DNA of 64,000 nt from an uncultured Alphaproteobacteria bacterium. GTDB lineage: Bacteria; Pseudomonadota; Alphaproteobacteria; Methylaequorales; Methylaequoraceae. A model generated the notes under the pieces. That model ran no database searches. It was given only the letters and a program-made list of their open reading frames with translations, and had not been told where the DNA came from. The position numbers and the translations under genes are program-made. How positions within the stretch are numbered: the first letter of the stretch is position 1; every line of letters starts with the position of its first letter. The stretch lies in NCBI GenBank assembly GCA_902595755.1, contig CACJRF010000007.1:1-64000 (forward strand), read 5' to 3'. Positions 32,688 to 61,893 of the stretch are shown here, piece by piece.

Positions 32688-33706
32688 ATATCAAGTTTAA
32701 CAATTTATTTACAGAAATTCATGAATACATAAACAAAAAAGCAATGGTTTTCTATGGACCAAATATTGGGAAAATTGATGATTGTATAATGTCAGTTATA
32801 ACCTTTAAAAAAAAAAAAGATAAAAAAATAGATATTCTCTATAAATATTCTGATGATCTTAAATCTGGTGAAATTAAAAATATAATCAATAAAAACAGTT
32901 CACTAGATTTATTTGGAAACATGACTTTAATCATTCTACGTTTATTTAATGAAAAATTATCAAAGGAAATTATTGATTCGCTCAAAGATATAAAAAATAA
33001 TGAGCTAAAAATCATAATTAGGGTAGAAAAATTAGGGGTTAAGTCTTTATTAAGAAAACATTTTGAAAAAACTGACGATTTAGTTATTGTGCCTTGTTAT
33101 GAAGAAAGTGCATATGAAAAACAAAAATTAATAAAGGATTTTTTCAAAAAGGAAAATATTCCAGTTACAGAATCATTTATAACTAACCTTTCAGAACATC
33201 TAAGTAATGACAGAATTGAAATCAGAGAAGAATTGAATAAAATTCAATTTTTATCTAAAGGAGAAGATAAAAACGTAAGAGAAATAAATATCTTTTATGA
33301 CTCTGTTTATACTGATGAATTAGAATTTATTAACTCTTTAGTTTCTGGAAAAGTTGACGCATTCTTAAGCAAAAAATTTGATAGCTTGAGTCTAATTAGA
33401 AGTGAACAGGTCAGATGTGCTTCAATTCTTCTAGAACATTTTTACAAGCTTTTAAAAGTTAAATTTCTTATAAATAGTGGAGTCTCAATTTACGAGGCAC
33501 AATCATCACTTAGACCGCCAATATTTTTTAAGTATAAAAATGATTTCGAAGAACAATTGTCAATCTGGAGTCTAAGAAACATAGAAGTAATCATAAAAAG
33601 ATTAATTCTGAGTAAAAAAAAATTTTTTAACGGCGATACCACAGCTACTTCTTATTTTTTCGGATGTCTCTTAAAAATTTTGAAGATAAGGACTAAGTTC
33701 TCTTAA
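32684..33706 (+). CDS. holA: DNA polymerase III subunit delta
   Basis: This 340-residue clamp-loader subunit has conserved patterns MVFYGPNIGKIDDCI (near residues 20-34), SLDLFGNMTLIILR, and IEIREELNKIQFL in the AAA+-like region. It opens the sliding clamp at the replication fork. It overlaps lptE by 4 bp and its end overlaps the convergent coaE by 14 bp. In most alphaproteobacteria holA adjoins parB. Here it adjoins coaE instead, which suggests a rearrangement. Confidence 0.9.
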   Translation: MNIKFNNLFTEIHEYINKKAMVFYGPNIGKIDDCIMSVITFKKKKDKKIDILYKYSDDLKSGEIKNIINKNSSLDLFGNMTLIILRLFNEKLSKEIIDSLKDIKNNELKIIIRVEKLGVKSLLRKHFEKTDDLVIVPCYEESAYEKQKLIKDFFKKENIPVTESFITNLSEHLSNDRIEIREELNKIQFLSKGEDKNVREINIFYDSVYTDELEFINSLVSGKVDAFLSKKFDSLSLIRSEQVRCASILLEHFYKLLKVKFLINSGVSIYEAQSSLRPPIFFKYKNDFEEQLSIWSLRNIEVIIKRLILSKKKFFNGDTTATSYFFGCLLKILKIRTKFS

Positions 33707-34286
33707 TTTCTTTTATAAAGCTCAAAAGATTTTTTTTTACTACCGCTCTCTTGTTATTTGTATCTAATAAAAGTGAAATTTTTTTTGATTTACTTAAATT
33801 TTTTTGATTCTTTAATATTTTTTTCAATTTAAATTCATTCATATTCTTTCTTTTTAAAACTCTCTTTTTTTGATTTTCTTTATTTAAAACTAAGTAAATT
33901 ATATAGTTATAGTCATCTTCTTGTTTTTTTTCAAAAAGAAGGGGAATATCAAAAAAAATAAATCCTTTTTTTTTGTTTTTTTTCAGAAATTTTTTTTTTG
34001 TAATTTCTAAATAAGAATAAACTATTTTTTCTAACTTTCTCAAGCTAGCAGGTGATGAAAACACATAATCCGAAAGTGATTTTTTATTAATTTTTCCATT
34101 TTTAAAAAATAAGTTGTCTACTTTATTATTGAAAGCTGTTTTTATTTCCTTTTTGAGATCACTGCATAAATACAGTTTACTTATTTCCTTATCACATTGA
34201 AAAACTTCATAACCTTCTTGTAATAGTATATTGGATATAGTTGTTTTTCCTGAACCTATGTTTCCTGTTATTGCTATCTTTTTCAT
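33693..34286 (-). CDS. coaE: Dephospho-CoA kinase
   Basis: This 197-residue P-loop kinase starts with IAITGNIGSGKTTISNIL. It keeps the CoaE pattern of a substrate Asp in FQCDKEIS and FFDIPLLFEKK in the lid region. It catalyses the last step of coenzyme A synthesis. The gene is unusually rich in lysine codons made of A runs. It follows aroE with an 11-bp gap and forms the minus-strand run maf-aroE-coaE leading away from the candidate origin. Confidence 0.92.
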   Translation of the reverse strand: MKKIAITGNIGSGKTTISNILLQEGYEVFQCDKEISKLYLCSDLKKEIKTAFNNKVDNLFFKNGKINKKSLSDYVFSSPASLRKLEKIVYSYLEITKKKFLKKNKKKGFIFFDIPLLFEKKQEDDYNYIIYLVLNKENQKKRVLKRKNMNEFKLKKILKNQKNLSKSKKISLLLDTNNKRAVVKKNLLSFIKEIKRT

Positions 34287-34297
34287 AGAAGCTTATC

Positions 34298-35158
34298 CTA
34301 GTCTCGCAATAAATTTACTGCTTCGTCTATATCATTTTTATTAAGATTGATGTTAAACCATTTTTTAAAGGATTCTGCTGCTTGTCTAATTAACATATAT
34401 TTGCCATTTACGTTTTTTTGAGGATCAATTCCACTATTATCCGCCATTTGATTAAATATTGTAAATTCTTGATTGTAATTTATATCATAAACGAAACCTT
34501 GCCTTGACATTAAGTGCAAGAATTCGTTATCTATTTTATGATCTACTTTCATGCCAAGATAACTTGTATTGATGAAGAGTCCAATGCATGAATGAACACC
34601 CTCAGATAGATTATGAATGTTCCAATTTGTTTTTTTCGAAATCCCTGATATTTTAAAGTTATCCACCAACTTTTTTGCATTAGAGATTGTCCTATTCCAT
34701 ATTTCTATACTATATGGCTCGTACTTAATCAATTCAGATAAAATACCGAAAGCCGCGCCGCCTGACCCTAATATTCCAATGGTCGAAGGGACAACAAAGT
34801 TAAAGTCTTCCTTTAGAGAAGTACAAAACCCTATTCCATCTGTATTAGTCCCAATTATTTTTTTACCCTCTTTATAAATTGTATTTATAGCCTTTGCTAA
34901 TTTTGCTGATTCATCAATTTCATCAAGGGCATCTATAAATTTTGTTTTAAATGGAACTGTAATATTTATTCCTTTAATTTCGCCTTCTCTTATTTTCTTA
35001 ATTAAATCATGTTTTTGTTCGACAAAAATTTTATCGTCCAAACTTAATTTTAGTTTCTCGTACTGATAGTCTTGATTATATTTTTTTAACCAATGGTTAT
35101 GTATTTCTGGTGATTTTGAATGTTCAACTGGATTACCTACAACGTATAACTTTTTCAT
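34298..35158 (-). CDS. aroE: Shikimate dehydrogenase
   Basis: This 286-residue enzyme has the shikimate-binding NPVEHSKSPEIHNHWL at the N-terminus, the catalytic Lys in INITVPFKTKF, the NTDGIGF motif with the catalytic Asp, and the nucleotide-binding GILGSGGAAFGIL. It reduces 3-dehydroshikimate in aromatic amino acid synthesis. Its start overlaps the maf end by 26 bp. Confidence 0.95.
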   Translation of the reverse strand: MKKLYVVGNPVEHSKSPEIHNHWLKKYNQDYQYEKLKLSLDDKIFVEQKHDLIKKIREGEIKGINITVPFKTKFIDALDEIDESAKLAKAINTIYKEGKKIIGTNTDGIGFCTSLKEDFNFVVPSTIGILGSGGAAFGILSELIKYEPYSIEIWNRTISNAKKLVDNFKISGISKKTNWNIHNLSEGVHSCIGLFINTSYLGMKVDHKIDNEFLHLMSRQGFVYDINYNQEFTIFNQMADNSGIDPQKNVNGKYMLIRQAAESFKKWFNINLNKNDIDEAVNLLRD

Positions 35159-35723
35159 TTTCTAATTCTCTCAATAAATTATTTACTGGAAAGCCTATTA
35201 TGGTCTCCATATCTCCTTGAATTACTTCTAAAAAATTATATTTTTTATTTTCTTCTATCTTATATGATCCAACGCAGCTTAAAGCTGTTTGTCTGTTTTT
35301 AGATAAATATTCATCTATATCAACTTCACTTATGTTTTTCATTTTTAACGTAGCATTTTTTGTTTCTCTAAAAATAATGGCTTCATTATATATTACAGCA
35401 ACAGAACTAATAAGCTTATGTTCTTTGTCTTTTAGAAAAAGTAAATTATTTTTAGCCTCGCTAACTGTCTCTGGCTTGTCTATTAATCTATCTTCACATA
35501 TTAATATTTGGTCCGATCCTATTATGATTTCATTTTCTCTTTCTACAACTGAACGAGCCTTAGCCTCTGCCAGCTCTTCCACAATTTTTATGTATGTTAT
35601 TTTCTTTTTTTTTATAATTCTTTCATCAATTTTGTGTGGGCGTACTTCAAAGTTTATTTTTTCACGTTTCAAGTATTCGATTCTCGATTTACTTGATGAA
35701 GCTAGTATAATTTGTTGACTCAT
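35133..35723 (-). CDS. maf: Maf family nucleoside triphosphate pyrophosphatase
   Basis: From the ATG at 35723 the protein is 196 residues, starting MSQQIILASSSKSRIEYL, the normal Maf N-terminus; an ATG 15 bp upstream is also possible. The catalytic Asp lies in IIIGSDQIL. Maf proteins hydrolyse abnormal or modified nucleotides. It is the first minus-strand gene left of the candidate origin, the position it holds in many alphaproteobacteria. Confidence 0.92.
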   Translation of the reverse strand: MSQQIILASSSKSRIEYLKREKINFEVRPHKIDERIIKKKKITYIKIVEELAEAKARSVVERENEIIIGSDQILICEDRLIDKPETVSEAKNNLLFLKDKEHKLISSVAVIYNEAIIFRETKNATLKMKNISEVDIDEYLSKNRQTALSCVGSYKIEENKKYNFLEVIQGDMETIIGFPVNNLLRELENEKVIRCR

Positions 35724-36004
35724 TGTTGATAAATCCATGTTTAGAATCGTTTCTTTGTTTTTACTCTACTTTACTAACTTTTAGTTCACATTATAACTTT
35801 GTTGATACTTTTGTTCACAATTTTTTTCTACTTCCCCACAATTACTTCTTAACCTTCATCTACTTTACTTTTATTTAATATTCCACATTGTACTCACAAC
35901 TTTATTTTGCTTTCTTCTGTTGGTATATTGTTATTAACTTTTATTAACATTATTATCTTCTCAACAACAACAACAACCTATATATATATAGATGTAGTAA
36001 GTCT
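35724..36004. other. Candidate chromosomal replication origin (oriC)
   Basis: This non-coding strand switch separates leftward maf-aroE-coaE from rightward hemE-hemH-hemJ-rho; an origin beside hemE is established for Caulobacter and Rickettsia. The plus strand is strikingly T/C-rich. DnaA-box-like sites against TTATCCACA are: TTATCAACA on the minus strand at 35724-35732 (8 of 9), GTATCAACA on the minus strand at 35800-35808 (7 of 9), TTGTTCACA 35811-35819, TTCCCCACA 35832-35840, TATTCCACA 35879-35887 (7 of 9 each) and TTATTAACA 35941-35949 (7 of 9). A direct repeat TTATTAAC also occurs, at 35931-35938 and 35941-35948. A TA-only stretch near 35980-35990 could be the unwinding element. No perfect box is present. 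Confidence 0.65.
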
Positions 36005-36994
36005 ATGGATAAAAAAACTAAAATATGGTTAATGAGACAAGCTGGTCGGTATTTACCTGAATATCAAGAAATACGAAAAAAAGAAAAAAATTTTATGAAT
36101 TTGTGTTTTAATCCTAAATTAGCTTGCGACATTTCTTTACAACCCATAGAAAGATTTGATTTCGATTTTATTATTTTGTTCTCGGACATCTTAGTTATCC
36201 CTTACGCACTCGGGCAAGAGGTAAAATTTAAAGAAAGCATTGGTCCAATCTTAGGAAATATAAATTACGAACAGTTAGAAGTAAATCTTTCTCAAAACTT
36301 AGAAAGATTAGCTCCAGTATTTGAAACAATAAAACTAATAAAACAAAAGAAAAAAGAGAAGGATCTAATTGGATTCTGTGGAGGTCCATTTACTGTTTTA
36401 AACTATATGGTAGAACAAGGTACATCAAAAACTCACGAAAAGATAAAAAAATTTATAAAAAGTAACAATGTGCTGTCAGAAAAAATAATAAAAATCATAA
36501 CCGATATTTCTATTGAATATTTAAAAAAACAGATAGACAGCGGGGTAGACGTTATCAAAGTTTTTGATTCGTGGGCAGGCTTATTGGATGGAGATTTATA
36601 CAAGAAATATATAATAGAGCCGAATAAAGAGATCGCAAAAGAAATAAAAAACTATTCACCTGGAACAAAACAGATATTTTTTCCAAGAGGATCAAAAGAA
36701 AACTATTTTAATTTTATAAAAGAAGTCCAACCAGATGTAATTTCACTTGATGAAGAGTTTCCAGATAATGTTTTCTCATATGCAAAAAAGAATGACATAA
36801 TACTCCAAGGAAATTTAAAACCAACAGCTTTAATAGAGGGAGGAAGAAAATTAAAAAAAGGGATAAAAAATATATTGAATAAATTTAAAGAAAATAAACA
36901 TATATTTAATCTATCTCATGGAGTTTTACCTCAAACACCAGTGGAAAATGTAGAAATATTGGTAGACACAATAAGGAATTACAATGAAACCTAA
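36005..36994 (+). CDS. hemE: Uroporphyrinogen decarboxylase
   Basis: This 329-residue enzyme begins with the family motif WLMRQAGRYLPEYQEIR, which carries the substrate-binding arginines. It continues with FDFIILFSDILVIPYALGQ containing the catalytic Asp region, then GFCGGPFTVL and VIKVFDSWAG. It decarboxylates uroporphyrinogen III in haem synthesis. It is the first gene right of the candidate origin and overlaps hemH by 11 bp. Its plus strand is visibly purine-rich, in contrast to the pyrimidine-rich gap before it. Confidence 0.96.
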   Translation: MDKKTKIWLMRQAGRYLPEYQEIRKKEKNFMNLCFNPKLACDISLQPIERFDFDFIILFSDILVIPYALGQEVKFKESIGPILGNINYEQLEVNLSQNLERLAPVFETIKLIKQKKKEKDLIGFCGGPFTVLNYMVEQGTSKTHEKIKKFIKSNNVLSEKIIKIITDISIEYLKKQIDSGVDVIKVFDSWAGLLDGDLYKKYIIEPNKEIAKEIKNYSPGTKQIFFPRGSKENYFNFIKEVQPDVISLDEEFPDNVFSYAKKNDIILQGNLKPTALIEGGRKLKKGIKNILNKFKENKHIFNLSHGVLPQTPVENVEILVDTIRNYNET

Positions 36995-37991
36995 AGAGCA
37001 TATAAAAATTCCAAATCCCAAAATAGGGGTGATACTTGTTAACTTAGGAACTCCAGAAGCAACAAACTATACTTCTATGTGGAAATACTTGAGAGAGTTT
37101 TTAAGCGACAAAAGAGTCATAGAATTACCAAGAATACTATGGTTTCCAATTTTGTATTTCATAATTTTAATAGTGAGGCCTAAAAAATCAGGAAAATTAT
37201 ATGAAAAAATATGGAATAAGAAAAAAGGAATTTCTCCATTAAAAGAAATAACAGCTAAAGTAACAGAGAAATTAAGAGCAAAGATTAAAATAAGCAAGGT
37301 TCAAATAGATTATGCTATGAACTATGGGAACCCTAGCATTTCAAAAATAATGATGAGTCAATTCAATCAAGGGTGTAATAAAATACTAATAGTCCCAATG
37401 TATCCGCAATATTCTGCAACGACAACAGCATCTGTAGTAGATAATGTAAACAGAGTTTTAAAAAATATGAGATGGCAGCCAACTATAAGATTTTGCCCAC
37501 CATATTTTGATGATGAAATTTATATAAAAGCTCTTAGTAGTCAGATTGAAAAAAAAATAAAAAAAGCAAAACCAGATAAAGTCTTAGCATCGTTTCATGG
37601 GATCCCAAAAAAATACTTTATGAAAGGAGATCCGTATCATTGCCAGTGTGCAAAAACAGTAAGACTGTTAAATGAAAAGTTAAAAAGAACAAGAACAGAA
37701 GTAGAATTGTCATTTCAATCAAGATTTGGACCACAAGAATGGTTAAGACCTTATATGAACGAGAAATTCAAGGAGTTAATAGGAAAGGGGCAAAAAAACA
37801 TAGTAATGGTAGCACCAGGATTTTCTGTAGATTGTCTAGAAACATTAGAGGAGATAAAAATGGAAGGACGAGAAGAGTTTAAGGAAATGGGAGGAGAAAA
37901 ATTTGAGTACATGAGTTGTTTAAACGATTCTAAAGAGTCAATAATAATGTTAGAAAAAATAGTGAAAAGAGAACTATCTGGATGGATATAG
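36984..37991 (+). CDS. hemH: Ferrochelatase
   Basis: This 335-residue enzyme has IGVILVNLGTPEA at its N-terminus, YPQYSATTTASV, and the active-site ASFHGIPKKYFMKGDPYHCQC with the metal-site His. The C-terminal PGFSVDCLETLEEI holds the second conserved acidic block. It inserts iron into protoporphyrin IX. It overlaps hemE and hemJ at its ends (11 and 10 bp), forming a haem operon. Confidence 0.96.
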   Translation: MKPKEHIKIPNPKIGVILVNLGTPEATNYTSMWKYLREFLSDKRVIELPRILWFPILYFIILIVRPKKSGKLYEKIWNKKKGISPLKEITAKVTEKLRAKIKISKVQIDYAMNYGNPSISKIMMSQFNQGCNKILIVPMYPQYSATTTASVVDNVNRVLKNMRWQPTIRFCPPYFDDEIYIKALSSQIEKKIKKAKPDKVLASFHGIPKKYFMKGDPYHCQCAKTVRLLNEKLKRTRTEVELSFQSRFGPQEWLRPYMNEKFKELIGKGQKNIVMVAPGFSVDCLETLEEIKMEGREEFKEMGGEKFEYMSCLNDSKESIIMLEKIVKRELSGWI

Positions 37992-38413
37992 ACATTTATA
38001 AAACAGCTAAAGCACTGCATATAATTTTTTTTACCACATGGATGGCAGGGTTGTTTTATTTACCAAGACTATTTGTATATCACTGCCAAGTTAAGGCAAA
38101 AACGCAGGAATACAAAAGGTTTGTAATAATGGAAAAGAAGTTACTAAAGTATATCATGAACCCATCCTTCATATTAACTTGGATAATAGGCACGATACTT
38201 GTTATAAATATCGAGCCAGCTCTATGGTTAAACATAAAAATTATCTGTATTGTTTTGATGAGTGCTTTTCACATGTATTGTGCAAAAATAAGAAGGATAT
38301 TTGAGAACAATAACAATAAAAAGAGTGAAAACTTTTACAGGTATATAAACGAAGTACCTACAATTCTTTTTATATTAATAATATTTCTCGCAATTTTTAA
38401 ACCAGGTATTTGA
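37982..38413 (+). CDS. hemJ: Protoporphyrinogen oxidase HemJ
   Basis: This 143-residue protein has four membrane segments and the HemJ signature KALHIIFFTTWMAGLFYLPR near the N-terminus (about residues 10-29) with the conserved haem-ligand His. It oxidises protoporphyrinogen IX, the step before ferrochelatase. It overlaps hemH, so the last three steps after coproporphyrin are nearly contiguous. A 47-bp gap separates it from rho. Confidence 0.93.
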   Translation: MDIDIYKTAKALHIIFFTTWMAGLFYLPRLFVYHCQVKAKTQEYKRFVIMEKKLLKYIMNPSFILTWIIGTILVINIEPALWLNIKIICIVLMSAFHMYCAKIRRIFENNNNKKSENFYRYINEVPTILFILIIFLAIFKPGI

Positions 38414-38460
38414 CAAACCTCAAAAATTAAATTAATAATAATATTTTCCCCGAAATTATC

Positions 38461-39717
38461 ATGCATCTAAAAGATTTGAAATCTAAAAACCCTCAAGAAC
38501 TTCTGAAAATTGCAGAAGACTTAGAAATAGAGAACGCAGGAACACTAAGAAAACAAGACATGATATTTGCCATTTTAAAGCAAATGGCTATGAATAACGA
38601 TGCGATATATGGTGAAGGTGTTTTAGAAATATTACAAGATGGGTTTGGGTTCCTAAGATCTCCAGATGCAAACTATTTACCTGGACCAGATGATATTTAT
38701 GTTTCTCCAGGCCAGATAAAAAAGAACAGTCTGAGAACAGGTGATACAGTAGAAGGCGAGATGAGATCACCAAGAGAGTCCGAAAGATATTTTGCCATTA
38801 CCAAAATTGATAAAATTAATTTTGAGGAAGCCGAGAAAACAAAGCAAAGAATAAACTTTGATAATTTGACTCCACTGTACCCTGAAGAAAAATTGAATAT
38901 GGAAATTGATGATCCAACGGTCAAAGATTCAACAAATAGAGTGATGGACTTAATTGCACCCTTAGGCAAAGGACAACGAGCGCTGATTGTCGCTCCACCT
39001 CGAACTGGTAAAACTGTAATGTTACAAAATATTGCTCATTCAATAACATCAAATCATCCTGAGGTTTACTTAATTGTACTTTTAATTGATGAAAGGCCGG
39101 AGGAAGTTACAGACATGATTCGTTCGGTAAAGGGTGAAGTTGTCTCATCAACATTTGATGAGCCTGCTGTAAGACACGTTGCTGTATCTGAAATGGTAAT
39201 TTCAAAAGCAAAAAGATTAGTGGAACATAAAAGAGATGTAGTTATTCTACTCGATTCTATAACTAGATTAGCAAGGGCTTATAACACCCAGGTTCCGAGT
39301 TCTGGAAAGGTTTTAACTGGAGGTGTTGATGCTAATGCACTTCAAAGGCCAAAAAGATTTTTTGGAGCGGCAAGAAATATAGAGGAGGGGGGCTCTCTCA
39401 CGATTATAGGGACAGCACTGGTAGATACAGGTTCGCGTATGGATGAAGTTATTTTTGAGGAATTTAAAGGAACTGGGAATTCCGAAATCATATTAGATAG
39501 AAAGCTTTCTGACAAAAGGGTTTTCCCTTCAATTGATGTTACAAAATCTGGAACTAGAAAGGAAGAGCTACTTGTATCAAAAGAAGATCTTTCAAAGATG
39601 TGGATTCTTCGAAAGATTCTTATGCCAATGGGAGCAAATGACTCAATGGAGTTTTTACTAGAAAAAATCAAAAACTCAAAAAATAATGGTGATTTCTTTG
39701 AATCAATGAACTCCTAG
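38461..39717 (+). CDS. rho: Transcription termination factor Rho
   Basis: This 418-residue full-length Rho has an N-terminal RNA-binding domain with [16 protein letters not shown]. The ATPase domain has Walker [13 protein letters not shown] (about residues 178-189) and the C-terminal [21 protein letters not shown]. It terminates untranslated transcripts and limits antisense transcription, which matters in a genome with so many overlapping gene ends. Its stop abuts the xthA start. Confidence 0.98.
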
Positions 39718-55855: not shown

Positions 55856-58800
55856 TTAATCACAATATCCACCTTGCATTACGCAAGGGTTAACTGTTAA
55901 ACTTTCGTCTGGGGTTGAAACTGATGTGGTTTCAATCATTATTGGTACCGACTTGTAAATTGTAGTGGTTGGCAATAACTCAACATTTCTTCCATTTACT
56001 GATGCAGCCTCTAAGGCAGTCTCAATTTGGCTTAGTGAACTGTTATCGCTTTCAGTCGACGTCTGAGCCGTAATAGTAAGTGTGTGAGTGCCTCCTGTTA
56101 ACGTATAGTTAGATGCTGTTCCAGTTCCATCACTTAATGCCAAGCTTCCAACAGTAATAGTCTTACTAGTTCCTACATCAGCAGAAGTAACAGTGCCAGA
56201 TCCAGATAAGGTTAAAGTCTCACTGTTCTGTAGACCACTTAATGTCTGATCAGCCGCAGCAGCGGTAGTAGTTGCATCGTAAGTACGCGAACCCGAAGAA
56301 GATAAAACAGCTTGAGTTATATCTAAAGTATGCGTTCCTCCAGTAATAGTATAGTTAGATGCTGTTCCAGTTCCATTACTTAATGCCAAGCTTCCAACAG
56401 TAATAGTCTTACTAGTTCCTACATCAGCAGAAGTAACAGTGCCAGATCCAGATAAGGTTAAAGTCTCACTGTTCTGTAGACCACTTAATGTCTGATCAGC
56501 CGCAGCAGCGGTAGTAGTTGCATCGTAAGTACGCGAACCCGAAGAAGATAAAACAGCTTTTGATATACGAGCGTTACTAATGGATTGAGTTCCTCCGGTT
56601 AAGCCATATACAGTTCCATGCGTGCTATGTGTTGCTGAGGAAATCGTATATGCACTTGAAGCAGTTACAGTTTTACTATTATCATTAAAATCTGCATCAT
56701 CATAGGTTAAGGTTGGGCTTGATAATGTTAAACTTATATTTGAAGATAGCCCATTTGCTGATGTTGTTGTTGCTGTACCAAATGTTGCTGTATCGGTTGA
56801 TGTTGTTGAGTCATATGTTTTATTAACAGTGTAAGACTCGCCAGAAATATTTGCATATGATTTGGTAATATCACCAGGATCATATCCAGTGAGAATTCCG
56901 TTTCCCGTTCCTAAAACAGAGTCACCGTCAGAATAGCCGTATTGTATAAAACCAGCTGACGGAATATTACTGAAATCATCATCTGTGTCTGATCTTAATC
57001 TGTAAATTTTCCAATTACCATTAGAAGCTGTGAGAGAGGTGATCGTTCCAACATCATATGCTTCAATACTGATTGCGCTAGTATCACTCTTTGAAGCTGT
57101 TAAGCTACCAGCACTAAGAGTGCCTGTTGTTGGTGTTCCGTGTGTTGTAACAACTATGTCGTCTGCTGAGCTGACAGTTCCCATAACAATATCGCCTTGC
57201 TCAGTATTTGTGAGACCAACACCATCATCCATATCAAAGGTTAAACTTCCCGAGCCTACATCTATTGTTGCATTATTTGTGATACTTGCCGCCCCAGAGT
57301 CTCTTTGAGCGTCAATTGTTCCTAAAGCTGAATCCGTATTGGCTCTTAAAGCTAAATTACCATTGTTAGTTGTAATATTTTGATTTAGAGTGATGCTTCT
57401 ACCTGCTAATAATGTTAAAGTAGAGCTATTTGATGTTGGAACTGAAATTGCACCATTTAGAGTGATATCAGTGTTAGCTTGTAGAGTTATATCTGTTCCC
57501 TCGGCAAGCATTGCCTCAATTATATTGTTATCCAAATCAGTCGTACTTGATGAATTGTATGACCCTAACGCGGAACTAGTTATTTCAGATCCAGTGAAAC
57601 TCGATAAATCAGTACTAGCTGATGAAAACTCATCACCTGCACTAAAATACCACCCCGATCCGTCATCTGAATAAGACCCACTTGGTCTTTGAAAGTTTAC
57701 CGTTATTTGGTCTCCACCTGCATTTTCACCAAAATAAATTAAAATAGGGTTATATTCATAACTCGAAAAAGTTTTTGTTCCTGTTTTTGATGTTGGTCCA
57801 TGTATACCACTATTGTCAACAACTTCATTGCTACTACTTCTATAGGAGATAAGGTCAGTTACACTCCCAATCGATCCATCCAAAGGTTCTGTCCATAGCC
57901 AACTTGAGTCATCACTTGTTGTTTGAAAACCGTAAGATCCAGCCGTTCTTGATAGAAAAAACCCTCGCCATTGAACACTGTAAGTGTCGTCAAAGTTTGT
58001 TCCTGGTGTTGTAGTGTTTATAGACGTAAAAAAAACAGAATCAAATTTTGCATCACTTTCTGTTGACGTGAAATTATCAAAGTTATCAGCAAAGTATCCT
58101 GAATATTTTTGTGCAACAAGACCGTCAGAAGTATTCGAACTGATTGTGATATTTTTAGGATCAAGTAGCAAATGACCACCTTTTACATATGTGTTAGTTA
58201 AATCAACCGTTCTTAAATTTTCTTTGGATGATATTTCTACAAACCCTCCGTTTTTGAATTTTTGCTCATCCTTGCTGAAATGTCCGTTAGCTTGAATCGA
58301 ACCATGATAATCCGTGACTTCTTCGGACCAAATCACTGCTGTACCGGCAGATCCGTTTTTACTTGAAATATCAATCGTTGAATATTTATCTACGTAGGTT
58401 TTTTGAGCAGTTGAAATTTTTGGAAGTTTACCAAAACGGTTAACGAATCCAAAATGTTCATTATCTGAGGTATAGTCTTGTCTTTTACCACCTTGAAACT
58501 CTCCGCCAACTCTTATCTTGCCGCCCATAGTTTTACCTTTAGCGCTGAGTTTTGCATTTAATAAAGCTATATTTTTCCCTTCAACATCAATCAAACCTCC
58601 ATTGCCCAACTCAGAATCAACATCGAATGAGCCAGAGGTTAAATTCACTAATTTTCCCTTATATTTTATACTCCCTCCTGTATGATCACCCTTAGCAATC
58701 AATTTTGATTTTCCTGGAGAAAAAAGAGTATCTTCAGACATAACAATAATCTCACCTCCCTTTTCAAATCCGTTTGCTTCAATCGTACTGTTATTAATCA

Positions 58801-59818
58801 AAAGTTTTTTTGAAAGAAGTTCAACCTTTCCCCCATTAAATCCATTTGCTTTTATTATCCCTTTACTATGGATATTATCACCTTTGATCGATACAAATCC
58901 AGCGGGCATATTTGAATTTTCACTTGAAACATCTATTTTTCCACCATGATATTGACTACCGTTTTGAGAATTTAAAGTTATTTTGCCACTTTTCTTGTCA
59001 TAGCTCATTGCTGTAATTGAGGCTTTATCACCGTTACTTATTGTTCCCATTCTTAAATGTTTTGCCACTTTAGCAGAAAGCTCTATTATACCGCCCTGAG
59101 CCTTCAGCTCCCCGTTGTTAGATATTAAATATTTAAGTGTTCGTCCGTATATGTCCGTAACCTTATCCAGATTTTGAGATGGGACAATGATATTCATCAT
59201 TCTGTTATTCTTAAAATTTAATGTTACGGAGTCACCCGCACCTAAAGCTATTTTTCCAAGTTTTGCTTTAACTATCCCGGAATTTTTAACATGCCTTCCA
59301 AGTAAAGCTGCATTTCCCCCAGAATTTACAATTATTGAACCTTTATTTTCAACACCCTTAGACAGAGGCTTTGCATTAAATTTGTAAATATTACTCAAAA
59401 AATCCTCATTACTTAAATCTAGAGACGATGCAGTAAATGTATTTGTATTAACAACCCCAGATTTAGATATGATGACGCCATTAGGATTAATTAAAAAAAC
59501 ATTACCGTTCGAATTTAATTTCCCTGATATTGTTGATGGTGTTGATCCTACAACTCTATTTAGTGATGATGATGATGATGATGGCATATTGAAGTCAACC
59601 CGTCCCTTCTCATGAATGGAAAAACTATTCCAATTTATGACAGACTTGTTTGTTTTTTGATTAATCTTCAAATGATTTGTTTCGCTTGAATCAATAATGA
59701 TATTGCCGCTTTGTACTTGTGGTCCAGATGGCATGTCATTTCCAAAAAGGGTGGAGCTAAAAAGTACAAAAAAACCCGACGGCAATTTTTTTAATAAGCA
59801 AATTATTTCTTTTTTCAC
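55856..59818 (-). CDS. Two-partner secretion exoprotein (TpsA) with PA14/GLEYA-like and YDG domains
   Basis: This 1320-residue secreted protein has a signal region (about residues 1-27) and the TPS secretion domain (about 30-270) with NPNGVIISKSG near 111-121. A beta-helix-forming repeat region follows, then the LLLDPKNITIS motif typical of TpsA. Residues about 569-726 (QWRGFFLSRTAGSYGFQTTS) look like a PA14/GLEYA ligand-binding domain. Near the C-terminus are one divergent YDG repeat (about 997-1085) and two near-identical ones (1088-1251), then a terminal pair CVMQGGYC. It is probably a surface adhesin. It follows its TpsB exporter by 20 bp. Confidence 0.88.
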   Translation of the reverse strand: MKKEIICLLKKLPSGFFVLFSSTLFGNDMPSGPQVQSGNIIIDSSETNHLKINQKTNKSVINWNSFSIHEKGRVDFNMPSSSSSSLNRVVGSTPSTISGKLNSNGNVFLINPNGVIISKSGVVNTNTFTASSLDLSNEDFLSNIYKFNAKPLSKGVENKGSIIVNSGGNAALLGRHVKNSGIVKAKLGKIALGAGDSVTLNFKNNRMMNIIVPSQNLDKVTDIYGRTLKYLISNNGELKAQGGIIELSAKVAKHLRMGTISNGDKASITAMSYDKKSGKITLNSQNGSQYHGGKIDVSSENSNMPAGFVSIKGDNIHSKGIIKANGFNGGKVELLSKKLLINNSTIEANGFEKGGEIIVMSEDTLFSPGKSKLIAKGDHTGGSIKYKGKLVNLTSGSFDVDSELGNGGLIDVEGKNIALLNAKLSAKGKTMGGKIRVGGEFQGGKRQDYTSDNEHFGFVNRFGKLPKISTAQKTYVDKYSTIDISSKNGSAGTAVIWSEEVTDYHGSIQANGHFSKDEQKFKNGGFVEISSKENLRTVDLTNTYVKGGHLLLDPKNITISSNTSDGLVAQKYSGYFADNFDNFTSTESDAKFDSVFFTSINTTTPGTNFDDTYSVQWRGFFLSRTAGSYGFQTTSDDSSWLWTEPLDGSIGSVTDLISYRSSSNEVVDNSGIHGPTSKTGTKTFSSYEYNPILIYFGENAGGDQITVNFQRPSGSYSDDGSGWYFSAGDEFSSASTDLSSFTGSEITSSALGSYNSSSTTDLDNNIIEAMLAEGTDITLQANTDITLNGAISVPTSNSSTLTLLAGRSITLNQNITTNNGNLALRANTDSALGTIDAQRDSGAASITNNATIDVGSGSLTFDMDDGVGLTNTEQGDIVMGTVSSADDIVVTTHGTPTTGTLSAGSLTASKSDTSAISIEAYDVGTITSLTASNGNWKIYRLRSDTDDDFSNIPSAGFIQYGYSDGDSVLGTGNGILTGYDPGDITKSYANISGESYTVNKTYDSTTSTDTATFGTATTTSANGLSSNISLTLSSPTLTYDDADFNDNSKTVTASSAYTISSATHSTHGTVYGLTGGTQSISNARISKAVLSSSGSRTYDATTTAAAADQTLSGLQNSETLTLSGSGTVTSADVGTSKTITVGSLALSNGTGTASNYTITGGTHTLDITQAVLSSSGSRTYDATTTAAAADQTLSGLQNSETLTLSGSGTVTSADVGTSKTITVGSLALSDGTGTASNYTLTGGTHTLTITAQTSTESDNSSLSQIETALEAASVNGRNVELLPTTTIYKSVPIMIETTSVSTPDESLTVNPCVMQGGYCD
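56066..56557 (-). repeat. Two near-identical 246-bp tandem repeats encoding YDG domains of TpsA
   Basis: Within tpsA two copies of an 82-codon unit lie head to tail. From 56104-56313 and 56350-56559 the DNA matches with one difference seen by eye (CATCAC versus CATTAC), offset exactly 246 bp. Each encodes SRTYDATTTAAAADQTLSGL and the rest of a YDG-type domain. DNA identity this high between copies suggests recent duplication or gene conversion and would allow copy number to change by recombination. Confidence 0.9.
59565..59582 (-). repeat. GAT trinucleotide microsatellite in tpsA
   Basis: Six tandem GAT units on the plus strand encode most of a run of six serines (residues about 79-84) in the TPS domain. 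Because the unit is three bases, copy-number change would lengthen or shorten the serine run without shifting the frame. Confidence 0.8.
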
Positions 59819-59838
59819 AGTATATAATCTTTATTTCG

Positions 59839-61641
59839 TTAAAAATTCATCGCGAGCTTTACTGCTATCTGATTATTATTCAATCTAATGTCTGAAAGCT
59901 TCTCAATTTTTTTTGAAGCCCATGTCTTTGAATACTCTGCTTTTCCATAAATATTTTTACCAAATACCGTTTTGTCAAATGCTTTAAATTCAACACCTAG
60001 CCCAATAGATTTCGCAGCTGTAGTTTTTTGTTCAGTTGCAGTTGGTTTCTTTATATACGCAACACCCATTGCAGAATAAATATATGGGGAAACAACTAAT
60101 TCATTGGATAAATTGACATTTCTAATAACCTGCATTCGAGTATACCAGTTTTTATCTCCAGTAATTGCACCTGATGTAAGGCTACTAATTTTGTTTTCAC
60201 CAATCACAGAGGCCTGCTCAGAGTTTAATAAACTGTCGCCGGTATATTGGCCCCCTCCATTTAAATTTACTATGTAATTGTCCAAAAAGTTTCTTGAATA
60301 CGATAAATTGGCATTTAAATGTGTATAAGTAGAGGTGGCAGATGCTCGTGACAATGGGGTAGATGTTGCTTCGCTTGCCGATCTTGAAAAAAGTTCTAAT
60401 CCTCTTGATAAATCTGCATTAAAACTTGTGCAACCGATGTCACAATTAGTTATGCTTGTGCCCAGCCTTACGTTTGTTAATCTATCGTGACTAATAAACT
60501 CTTTTTTTCCAGTCATATTTGTAAATTGTATTTCATCAGTCCAGTTAATTGTCCCCCTGAGAAACCATGTTTTACTTGGCTGATAAACTAAAGGGTGTGA
60601 TAAAGTTAATGAACCAGATTTCATATTTGCTTCAAGTAGAAGTGACTCAAGCTCGCCACCTGGTCGCGTCATGCTTTCTAAATAAGATAAACCTATAAAA
60701 GTACCGTTTTTACCAATAGGAGCGGATAATGATATTCCTCCTGCCCTAATAGGAACACTTCTTCCAGTTCCTTTAACTCCCTTTTCTGTTGGCCTTGCTA
60801 ATCCAAACATGGATAAAGTTTCACCTAATCCCAAAGGAGAGTTAATTCTAAGACTCATCTGACCCTGTTGTCTAGATAACGATTTACTTTGAAAATTATT
60901 AAACTCCATCGATCCGGAAACATATTTATGAGATGCCTCTATTATTAATTTTGTTAAATTATCTGGTCCCGGAAGAAAACCTGAGTTTAAAGTAACACCA
61001 GAAATGCTCCCAGCAAGGATAAGTCTTCGATTAATTTCTTTTTGAGTAAGAGTTTTTTTATTTAGAAGAGGTTTTAAATAAGAATATATTAAGGCAGCTT
61101 GATTAGCAGGTACGTTTCTTAAGTCTAATTTATCGATTGTACCGTCTAATACTTTAAAAAATATTGTTGCATTATCGGAATCTAACTCCTGCGATGGAAC
61201 TATCACTTGTACAAGGGGATATCCCTTCTTATAAAATTCATCAGTTAATTGATCAGCAACAATATTAAGCTGCTCAATCGTTTTCTCTTGATTTATTAAC
61301 TCTTTTTTGTACTTGTTGAAGTTAATTATTTTTTGTAATGGTTCTGGTGCTAAAATTATAATTGTTTTTGGGCGTATGAATATATCTGAGTTTTCGATTG
61401 TTTTTATTTGATTTAATTTTTTTGGAATTTCGGGAATCGATTTTTGTTTGTCGTTTAAATCAAAAAAGTCAGGCTGGCTATATTTTTTAAAAAAATCAGG
61501 TAAAGCTTGACTTGGTGTCTGAGGATTAGCGTTAGCAATATTATTGTGGAGACACAAAGATGCAAATACTAACAAAAATTTTAGATACCAAATTAGCTTG
61601 TAATAAGGCACACAGAACACCGTAGGGTTCACCTTTAACAT
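59839..61641 (-). CDS. Two-partner secretion outer-membrane transporter (TpsB, FhaC/ShlB family)
   Basis: This 600-residue protein has a signal peptide (KFLLVFASLCLHNNIANA, cleavage near residue 38). A POTRA-type region (about 85-235) includes FYKKGYPLVQVIVPSQELD and SGVTLNSGFLPGPDNLTKL (about 204-222). A C-terminal beta-barrel of about 350 residues ends IAVKLAMNF with the terminal aromatic residue expected for BAM-inserted proteins. It exports the TpsA protein encoded directly downstream. Its upstream 252-bp gap holds a perfect DnaA-box sequence at 61667-61675. Confidence 0.9.
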   Translation of the reverse strand: MLKVNPTVFCVPYYKLIWYLKFLLVFASLCLHNNIANANPQTPSQALPDFFKKYSQPDFFDLNDKQKSIPEIPKKLNQIKTIENSDIFIRPKTIIILAPEPLQKIINFNKYKKELINQEKTIEQLNIVADQLTDEFYKKGYPLVQVIVPSQELDSDNATIFFKVLDGTIDKLDLRNVPANQAALIYSYLKPLLNKKTLTQKEINRRLILAGSISGVTLNSGFLPGPDNLTKLIIEASHKYVSGSMEFNNFQSKSLSRQQGQMSLRINSPLGLGETLSMFGLARPTEKGVKGTGRSVPIRAGGISLSAPIGKNGTFIGLSYLESMTRPGGELESLLLEANMKSGSLTLSHPLVYQPSKTWFLRGTINWTDEIQFTNMTGKKEFISHDRLTNVRLGTSITNCDIGCTSFNADLSRGLELFSRSASEATSTPLSRASATSTYTHLNANLSYSRNFLDNYIVNLNGGGQYTGDSLLNSEQASVIGENKISSLTSGAITGDKNWYTRMQVIRNVNLSNELVVSPYIYSAMGVAYIKKPTATEQKTTAAKSIGLGVEFKAFDKTVFGKNIYGKAEYSKTWASKKIEKLSDIRLNNNQIAVKLAMNF

Positions 61642-61666
61642 TTTACTACCTATTTAAATTTCCTTA

Positions 61667-61675
61667 TGTGGATAA
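61667..61675 (-). promoter_or_regulatory. Perfect DnaA-box 9-mer upstream of tpsB
   Basis: The minus strand reads TTATCCACA, an exact match to the DnaA-box consensus, in the gap upstream of tpsB. A second near match (TTATCAACA, plus strand, 61735-61743, 8 of 9) lies 60 bp away. Roughly one perfect match is expected by chance in an AT-rich window of this size, so function is unproven. The rest of the 61642-61893 gap shows no gene. Confidence 0.35.
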
Positions 61676-61893
61676 TATCGCGAAACCCAGGAAATCTCAA
61701 TGATTTTGAAAATTAAATAGTTCTCATCCTAATGTTATCAACAGTTTTCTAATAAGTACCAGTTATCTTAATTTTTTTAGTTTTCTACAAACACTTTAAT
61801 TTTTGAAAGTTAGTAAAAGAGCAATTAGTGTGATTTGTTTTTAATTTCTGGCTCCAGTGAAAGCATTTTTGTTCTATTTTTTTTCAAATAGTT

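Follow-up and report, generated by a model that had tools for sequence, protein, structure and literature searches.

The basal unwinding system (BUS), which is composed of DnaA-boxes and DnaA-trios, is known from Bacillus subtilis and predicted in most bacteria, and it has been proposed to be the ancestral system by which bacteria open their origins. In this system, the spacing from box to trios peaks at 10-13 bp (PMC8287927). The published B. subtilis trio is 3'-GAT-5', the middle adenine of which can be replaced well by C and not by G or T, and of the three bases in a triplet, DnaA captures just the first two (PMC10721633). The residues of B. subtilis DnaA responsible for base capture are E183, N187, I190, I193, R202 and E228, and N187 reads the middle adenine. 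The DnaA complexes of Escherichia coli bind TTGT/TTATT motifs, and Thermotoga maritima employs TAG repeats similarly (PMC10316083). Among alphaproteobacteria, the gap on the side of hemE is the experimentally known origin of Caulobacter and the predicted origin of Rickettsia (PMC1914354). No paper on DnaA-trios in alphaproteobacteria was found in the literature that we searched.

The window analyzed here is a stretch of 64 kb that forms part of contig C7 in a genome of 1.30 Mb (36 contigs, 87.5% complete). Among its relatives that bear a name, the closest is a MAG entered under Pelagibacteraceae bacterium TMED13. Within the window, an intergenic gap of 266 bp (35739-36004, 74% AT) is, as far as sequence reaches, almost certainly the origin of replication, oriC. 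To its left lies maf (35133-35738, minus strand, starting at 35738; Pfam Maf, 2.6e-41), and to its right lies hemE (36005-36994, plus strand; URO-D, 5.4e-99), the classic neighbor of alphaproteobacterial origins (PMC1914354). These genes diverge from the gap, as a preliminary description of this DNA had claimed. That description took 35724-36004 as the origin interval; the gap itself is real, but the first 15 bp, together with the best box at 35724-35732, are maf coding sequence. The gap must also accommodate the promoters of both maf and hemE.

Origin-side synteny is kept by aroE (34298-35158) and coaE (33693-34286) on the minus strand and, across 36984-39717 on the plus strand, by hemH (36984-37991), hemJ/UPF0093 (37982-38413) and rho (38461-39717). 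The order coaE-aroE-maf, gap, hemE-hemH-hemJ(-rho) is common to the family and is partly retained in more distant loci. Both flanks are present in 29 distinct family members; the equivalent gap measures 266-321 bp in every one of them, and maf adjoins it directly in the window and in each of these 29 complete members. The predicted origin of Rickettsia prowazekii and the Cori of Caulobacter crescentus are likewise adjacent to hemE and contain DnaA boxes and an AT-rich stretch; however, their other neighbor is COG1806 (RP001), where maf is found here, and they are quoted at >400 bp, compared with 266 bp here (PMC1914354). Boundary genes vary among known origins, with COG1253 used in Wolbachia, Ehrlichia and Anaplasma (PMC1914354); thus, the presence of maf in place of COG1806 is not disqualifying. 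A search of 35701-36050 for CtrA sites (TTAA-N7-TTAA) found none, as is also the case in some Wolbachia origins (PMC1914354).

Scanning 35724-36004 for 9-mers with no more than two mismatches to the DnaA box TTATCCACA revealed seven DnaA-like boxes, one with a single mismatch and six with two, and no perfect box. The box with one mismatch, TTATCAACA (35724-35732, minus strand), is situated within the first maf codons. Those with two mismatches include GTATCAACA (35800-35808, minus strand), at a column of the family alignment where an inverted box of the TGTT/TGTG type is frequent; TTGTTCACA (35811-35819, plus strand), whose ACA core column is also frequent in the family; TTCCCCACA (35832-35840, plus strand); TATTCCACA (35879-35887, plus strand); and the left anchor box TTATTAACA (35941-35949, plus strand), at the same place as which relative L027 has a perfect TTATCCACA. 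An eighth box, the right anchor TTATCCATA (36004-36012, minus strand, one mismatch), overlaps the hemE start codon. The preliminary description, which had counted at least six degenerate boxes in 280 bp and no perfect one, was correct on both points, and the absence of perfect boxes would fit initiation through low-affinity sites.

The gap with its short flanks contains 8 boxes, compared with 1.66 in dinucleotide shuffles, and none of 200 shuffles reached 8. No other 290-bp stretch of the window is as rich in boxes (8 boxes; window mean 1.15), and the gap has the highest box density among the 8 intergenic regions of the window longer than 90 bp. The origin gap is also the densest cluster in two relatives (G010 and G026) and is tied for densest in a third (G015). 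Loss of the cluster in relatives had been put forward as a test of the origin reading; instead, the cluster is retained, with 198 boxes in 29 relatives together against 49.7 ± 6.5 expected, although relatives are non-independent samples and counts over them overstate the evidence. The dnaA gene locus was considered as an alternative origin and rejected, as no 290 bp of it contain more than 3 boxes. Perfect boxes are not enriched across the genome, which has 12 of them and 11 matches to the reversed pattern. Just to the right of the window, dnaQ and a gene for an outer-membrane ShlB-like protein are separated by a region with two perfect boxes that face opposite ways at a distance of 60 bp (C7:69757-69825; L278:5757-5825), and this pair could be a regulatory or titration site. 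The only perfect box of the window (61667, minus strand) is in the gap between a ShlB-like gene and an ammonium transporter gene (61642-61893). A two-partner secretion pair, consisting of a 1320-aa TPS-domain protein with YDG domains and the ShlB-like transporter, occupies 55856-61641 and is unusual for a small marine genome.

Strand composition was evaluated in 2-kb bins. The GC and AT skews are -0.216 and -0.212 at 34-36 kb and +0.169 and +0.237 at 36-38 kb. The flip in strand bias described earlier is thus present at 36 kb, but it is not unique to the gap: local skew changes sign several times within the window, tracking gene orientation, and for this reason the flip alone is weak evidence. 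Our own genome being in 36 contigs, cumulative GC skew, which had been suggested as a test, was taken from stretches of relatives, which makes this an indirect test. A turn at or near hemE was found in G010, where the absolute minimum of a 364-kb contig is 7 bp from the hemE start, and in the closed alphaproteobacterial genome G182, but the minimum is 8 kb from the hemE start in G026 and 29 kb from it in G015. The local skew contrast at hemE falls within the top 2-9% of positions on G010 and is unremarkable on G015 and G026. In G182, with hemE at 37.0 kb, the sampled skew switches between 20-36.5 kb and 38-58 kb (-0.069 just left of hemE, +0.034 just right), remains positive to about 2 Mb and then becomes negative, reverting at about 2.1 Mb of 3.94 Mb. 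A second closed genome, G303, in which the cut falls at its own hemE gap, follows the same trend with exceptions. The closed genomes G223 and G303 (loci L113 and L179) are linearized within or beside the hemE-side origin gap.

Near-consensus parS sites occur only twice in the 1.3 Mb of our own genome, at C7:64664 and C7:66586, one being perfect and the other having one mismatch. Both are beside parB (region C7:64664-69042, L278), about 30 kb from the gap. Inside the window there is no near-consensus parS, and there are 5 weak sites with 3 mismatches (0.43 expected). Taken together, synteny, the box cluster in 29 relatives, the turning points of the skew and the proximity of parS and parB support the identification of oriC made in the preliminary description, and no observation weighs heavily against it.

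In the family alignment, the best-conserved stretch is the hemE side of the gap and not the boxes. The left anchor box is followed by a spacer of 12 bp (35950-35961) and by a (CAA)5 array (35962-35976, plus strand; 3'-(GTT)5-5' on the bottom strand), which we propose to be an alphaproteobacterial form of the DnaA-trios. Next come the AT-only stretch TATATATATATA (35979-35990, 12 bp), a putative duplex unwinding element (DUE), and the array TAGATGTAGTAA (35989-36000, plus strand), which presents trios of the 3'-GAT-5' type on the top strand, facing left, and which in most relatives is TAGTAG or TAGTAGTAG. The preliminary description had located the origin correctly and had noted the TA-only stretch on the hemE side, but it missed the CAA and TAG triplet arrays; no other part of the gap is as well conserved or as informative.

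The CAA array is retained in all 29 complete family members, and its rare substitutions, CTA or CCA for CAA, preserve the 3-bp period. Of 32 genomes of the order, 24 carry the combined CAA, AT and TAG pattern at hemE and 3 more match off-site only, compared with 2 matches in all for the reversed control. The window contains (CAA)5 a single time, as do 364 and 320 kb of sequence from two relatives, and each of these copies is at the origin gap. The same layout of (CAA)5, AT tract and TAGTAG at hemE was also seen in a genome of another family (L147 in G060, family f23, with 16% GC around the locus). A plus-strand box with at most two mismatches is situated exactly 12 bp before the CAA array in 14 of the 29 relatives. 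In about 21 of them, a minus-strand box with at most two mismatches overlaps or follows the hemE start and points at the TAG array; these boxes use different codons and spellings among relatives (TTATCCATA, TAATCCACA, TTATTAACA and TTATCAACA). The register of the CAA array relative to the TAG array takes offsets of 0, 1 and 2. A continuous filament over both arrays would require a shared 3-bp register, and this register is not conserved; thus, one filament spanning the two arrays is unlikely.

This arrangement resembles the BUS in its box, spacer of about 12 bp, array with a 3-bp period and AT-rich tract, in the same order and polarity. A box no more than 16 bp from the triplets and AT-rich DNA beyond them, the layout by which a BUS is recognized, are found here with the 12-bp spacer. 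In contrast, the middle adenine opposite the box (3'-NAN-5') is missing from the left array, which is 3'-(GTT)5-5', whereas the right array, on the hemE side, is of the 3'-GAT-5' type. This is at odds with the published BUS, because 3'-GTT-5' does not contain the middle adenine, an important base in B. subtilis, for which T and G are worse than A and C (PMC10721633). The origin of T. maritima (eTrio, three TAG repeats) is also similar in having tandem trinucleotides beside an AT-rich DUE as the proposed single-strand site of DnaA; however, it is a CAA array that lies 12 bp from the left box here, and TAG lies on the far side in the opposite orientation.

To view this pattern across the class, we read the region upstream of hemE in 87 alphaproteobacterial loci, as a rule one from each family. 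When C-N-A runs were used to seed a position model, it converged on tandem boxes (AATCCCC...CACAGG), followed by C-N-A repeats and then T/A-rich DNA, and this model scored above threshold in 73 of the 87 loci; since the seeds were runs of this kind, the statistic for C.A runs is in part a product of selection. The middle base of the triplets in runs is T in 81, A in 73, C in 47 and G in 2 (n=203), and these counts, like the genome-wide uniqueness of (CAA)5, are independent of the seeding; the scarcity of G may reflect only that this strand is poor in G overall. Opposite the box, the strand thus reads 3'-GNT-5' in the class (3'-G[A/T/G]T-5') and 3'-GTT-5' in our order, where it is nearly without A or C in the array; the B. 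subtilis trio, in contrast, is 3'-GAT-5', A being favored in the middle. Outside our order, the class shows no enrichment of the right-hand TAG array (observed/shuffled 0.91), which was dropped as a class-wide feature.

These loci also bear on the proposal that the gap is merely a divergent maf/hemE promoter region, in which the AT tract and the repeats would serve transcription or hemE translation, for example as an unstructured CAA leader. The divergence of the two genes and the position of the arrays immediately upstream of hemE in our order agree with this proposal. However, in the class the C-N-A array is found at about 64-249 bases from the hemE match and yet remains close to an AT tract and to boxes of the DnaA type, and a promoter function leaves the box enrichment, the skew and parS unexplained. 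We therefore regard this proposal as highly improbable.

The DnaA protein of our own genome could be aligned over most of its length to the B. subtilis DnaA of structure 8btg. Among the base-capture residues, E183, I190 and E228 are kept, whereas R202 is replaced by K, I193 by L and N187 by Y. Across 30 readable alphaproteobacterial DnaA sequences, E183 and E228 are invariant, position 190 is I or V, and position 202 is K. Position 187 is Y in 26, F in 3 and H in 1 of these sequences; it is never aromatic in 26 other Pseudomonadota, which have N, A, T or Q there. DnaA of T. maritima, which uses TAG, has Asn at the position that aligns to 187 in our alignment. Tyr, Phe or His at this position, where B. 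subtilis has Asn, would fit an altered rule for the middle base, as a correlation between one class and the others; Asn187 is also absent from many other Pseudomonadota, and the arrays read here are alphaproteobacterial.

Considering these findings, we propose the following explanation, to which we assign a probability of roughly 0.65 as a whole: the gap is oriC, its boxes would guide DnaA onto the C-N-A/CAA array, the AT tract would be opened, and a second module may take part. DnaA would occupy the run of degenerate boxes over the gap, which mostly differ from the consensus at two positions, and the box at 35941-35949 would steer it onto the triplet array 12 bp to the right. There, a DnaA filament could extend with one protomer per three bases and separate the strands, after which the adjacent TATATATATATA tract would open for helicase loading. 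The triplets engaged in alphaproteobacteria would be C-N-A on the box strand (3'-GNT-5' opposite) with a free middle base, and CAA in our order. A BUS-like role of the CAA array is likely. Under the published reading of the BUS, the orientation of the box means that the engaged strand would be 3'-GTT-5', and we consider the bottom strand more likely than the top to be the one bound by DnaA.

The array could instead be read on the top strand of the same oriC. In that register it is 3'-CAN-5' with A in the middle, in line with the published amine rule, and DnaA would proceed from the hemE-side box through the GAT triplets and the AT tract onto CAN along one strand. The middle base is almost always A in that register and just the third base varies, B. 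subtilis DnaA captures only the first two bases, and the TAG array places 3'-GAT-5' on the same strand, all of which this reading would accommodate. Nevertheless, it appears improbable, given that the box with the conserved 12-bp spacing sits on the opposite side and points the other way, that the hemE-side TAG array is not enriched outside our order, and that all three relative registers of CAA and TAG among the relatives run contrary to one continuous filament.

We give equally little credence to an opening of oriC by recruitment of the E. coli ssDUE type, in which the melted bottom strand GGTTGTTGTTGTTGTTG, a TTGT-type run, would be held by DnaA assembled on the boxes rather than serve as a filament template from the adjacent box. 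TTGT/TTATT motifs bind E. coli DnaA complexes, T. maritima TAG repeats act alike (PMC10316083), and TTGT units are repeated on the bottom strand of the array here too. What differs from the E. coli motifs is that the array is regular and at a fixed distance from the box, and its strict 3-bp period, the freedom mainly of its middle base and the fixed 12-bp spacing suit a trio filament better.

Returning to the box-guided filament on the CAA array, a second, opposed module may be present on the hemE side, where the box TTATCCATA and minus-strand triplets of the CTA type (3'-GAT-5' on the plus strand) might open the AT tract from the opposite side; that this module works is somewhat doubtful. A broader scenario can be formulated that joins these points. 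In this scenario, alphaproteobacteria would use a relaxed 3'-GNT-5' trio code, enabled by the aromatic residue that replaces the adenine-reading Asn187; in the SAR11-like order, this code would have collapsed to an essentially adenine-free (GTT)5, and a convergent GAT module would have been added beyond the DUE, with the duplex opening from both ends as a result. This combination is tentative and, in its entirety, rather unlikely.

The origin itself is ordinary, and the altered triplet code proposed here is what is new. If the C-N-A array is the alphaproteobacterial trio, the code is looser than has been thought, and many unwinding sites would be overlooked or wrongly placed by searches in which a middle adenine is required. 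The co-variation of Asn187 with GAT and of Tyr187 with GNT, if true, lends itself to a direct swap experiment. In addition, the array would provide a simple sequence mark for finding the origins of uncultured marine alphaproteobacteria that are known only from fragments.
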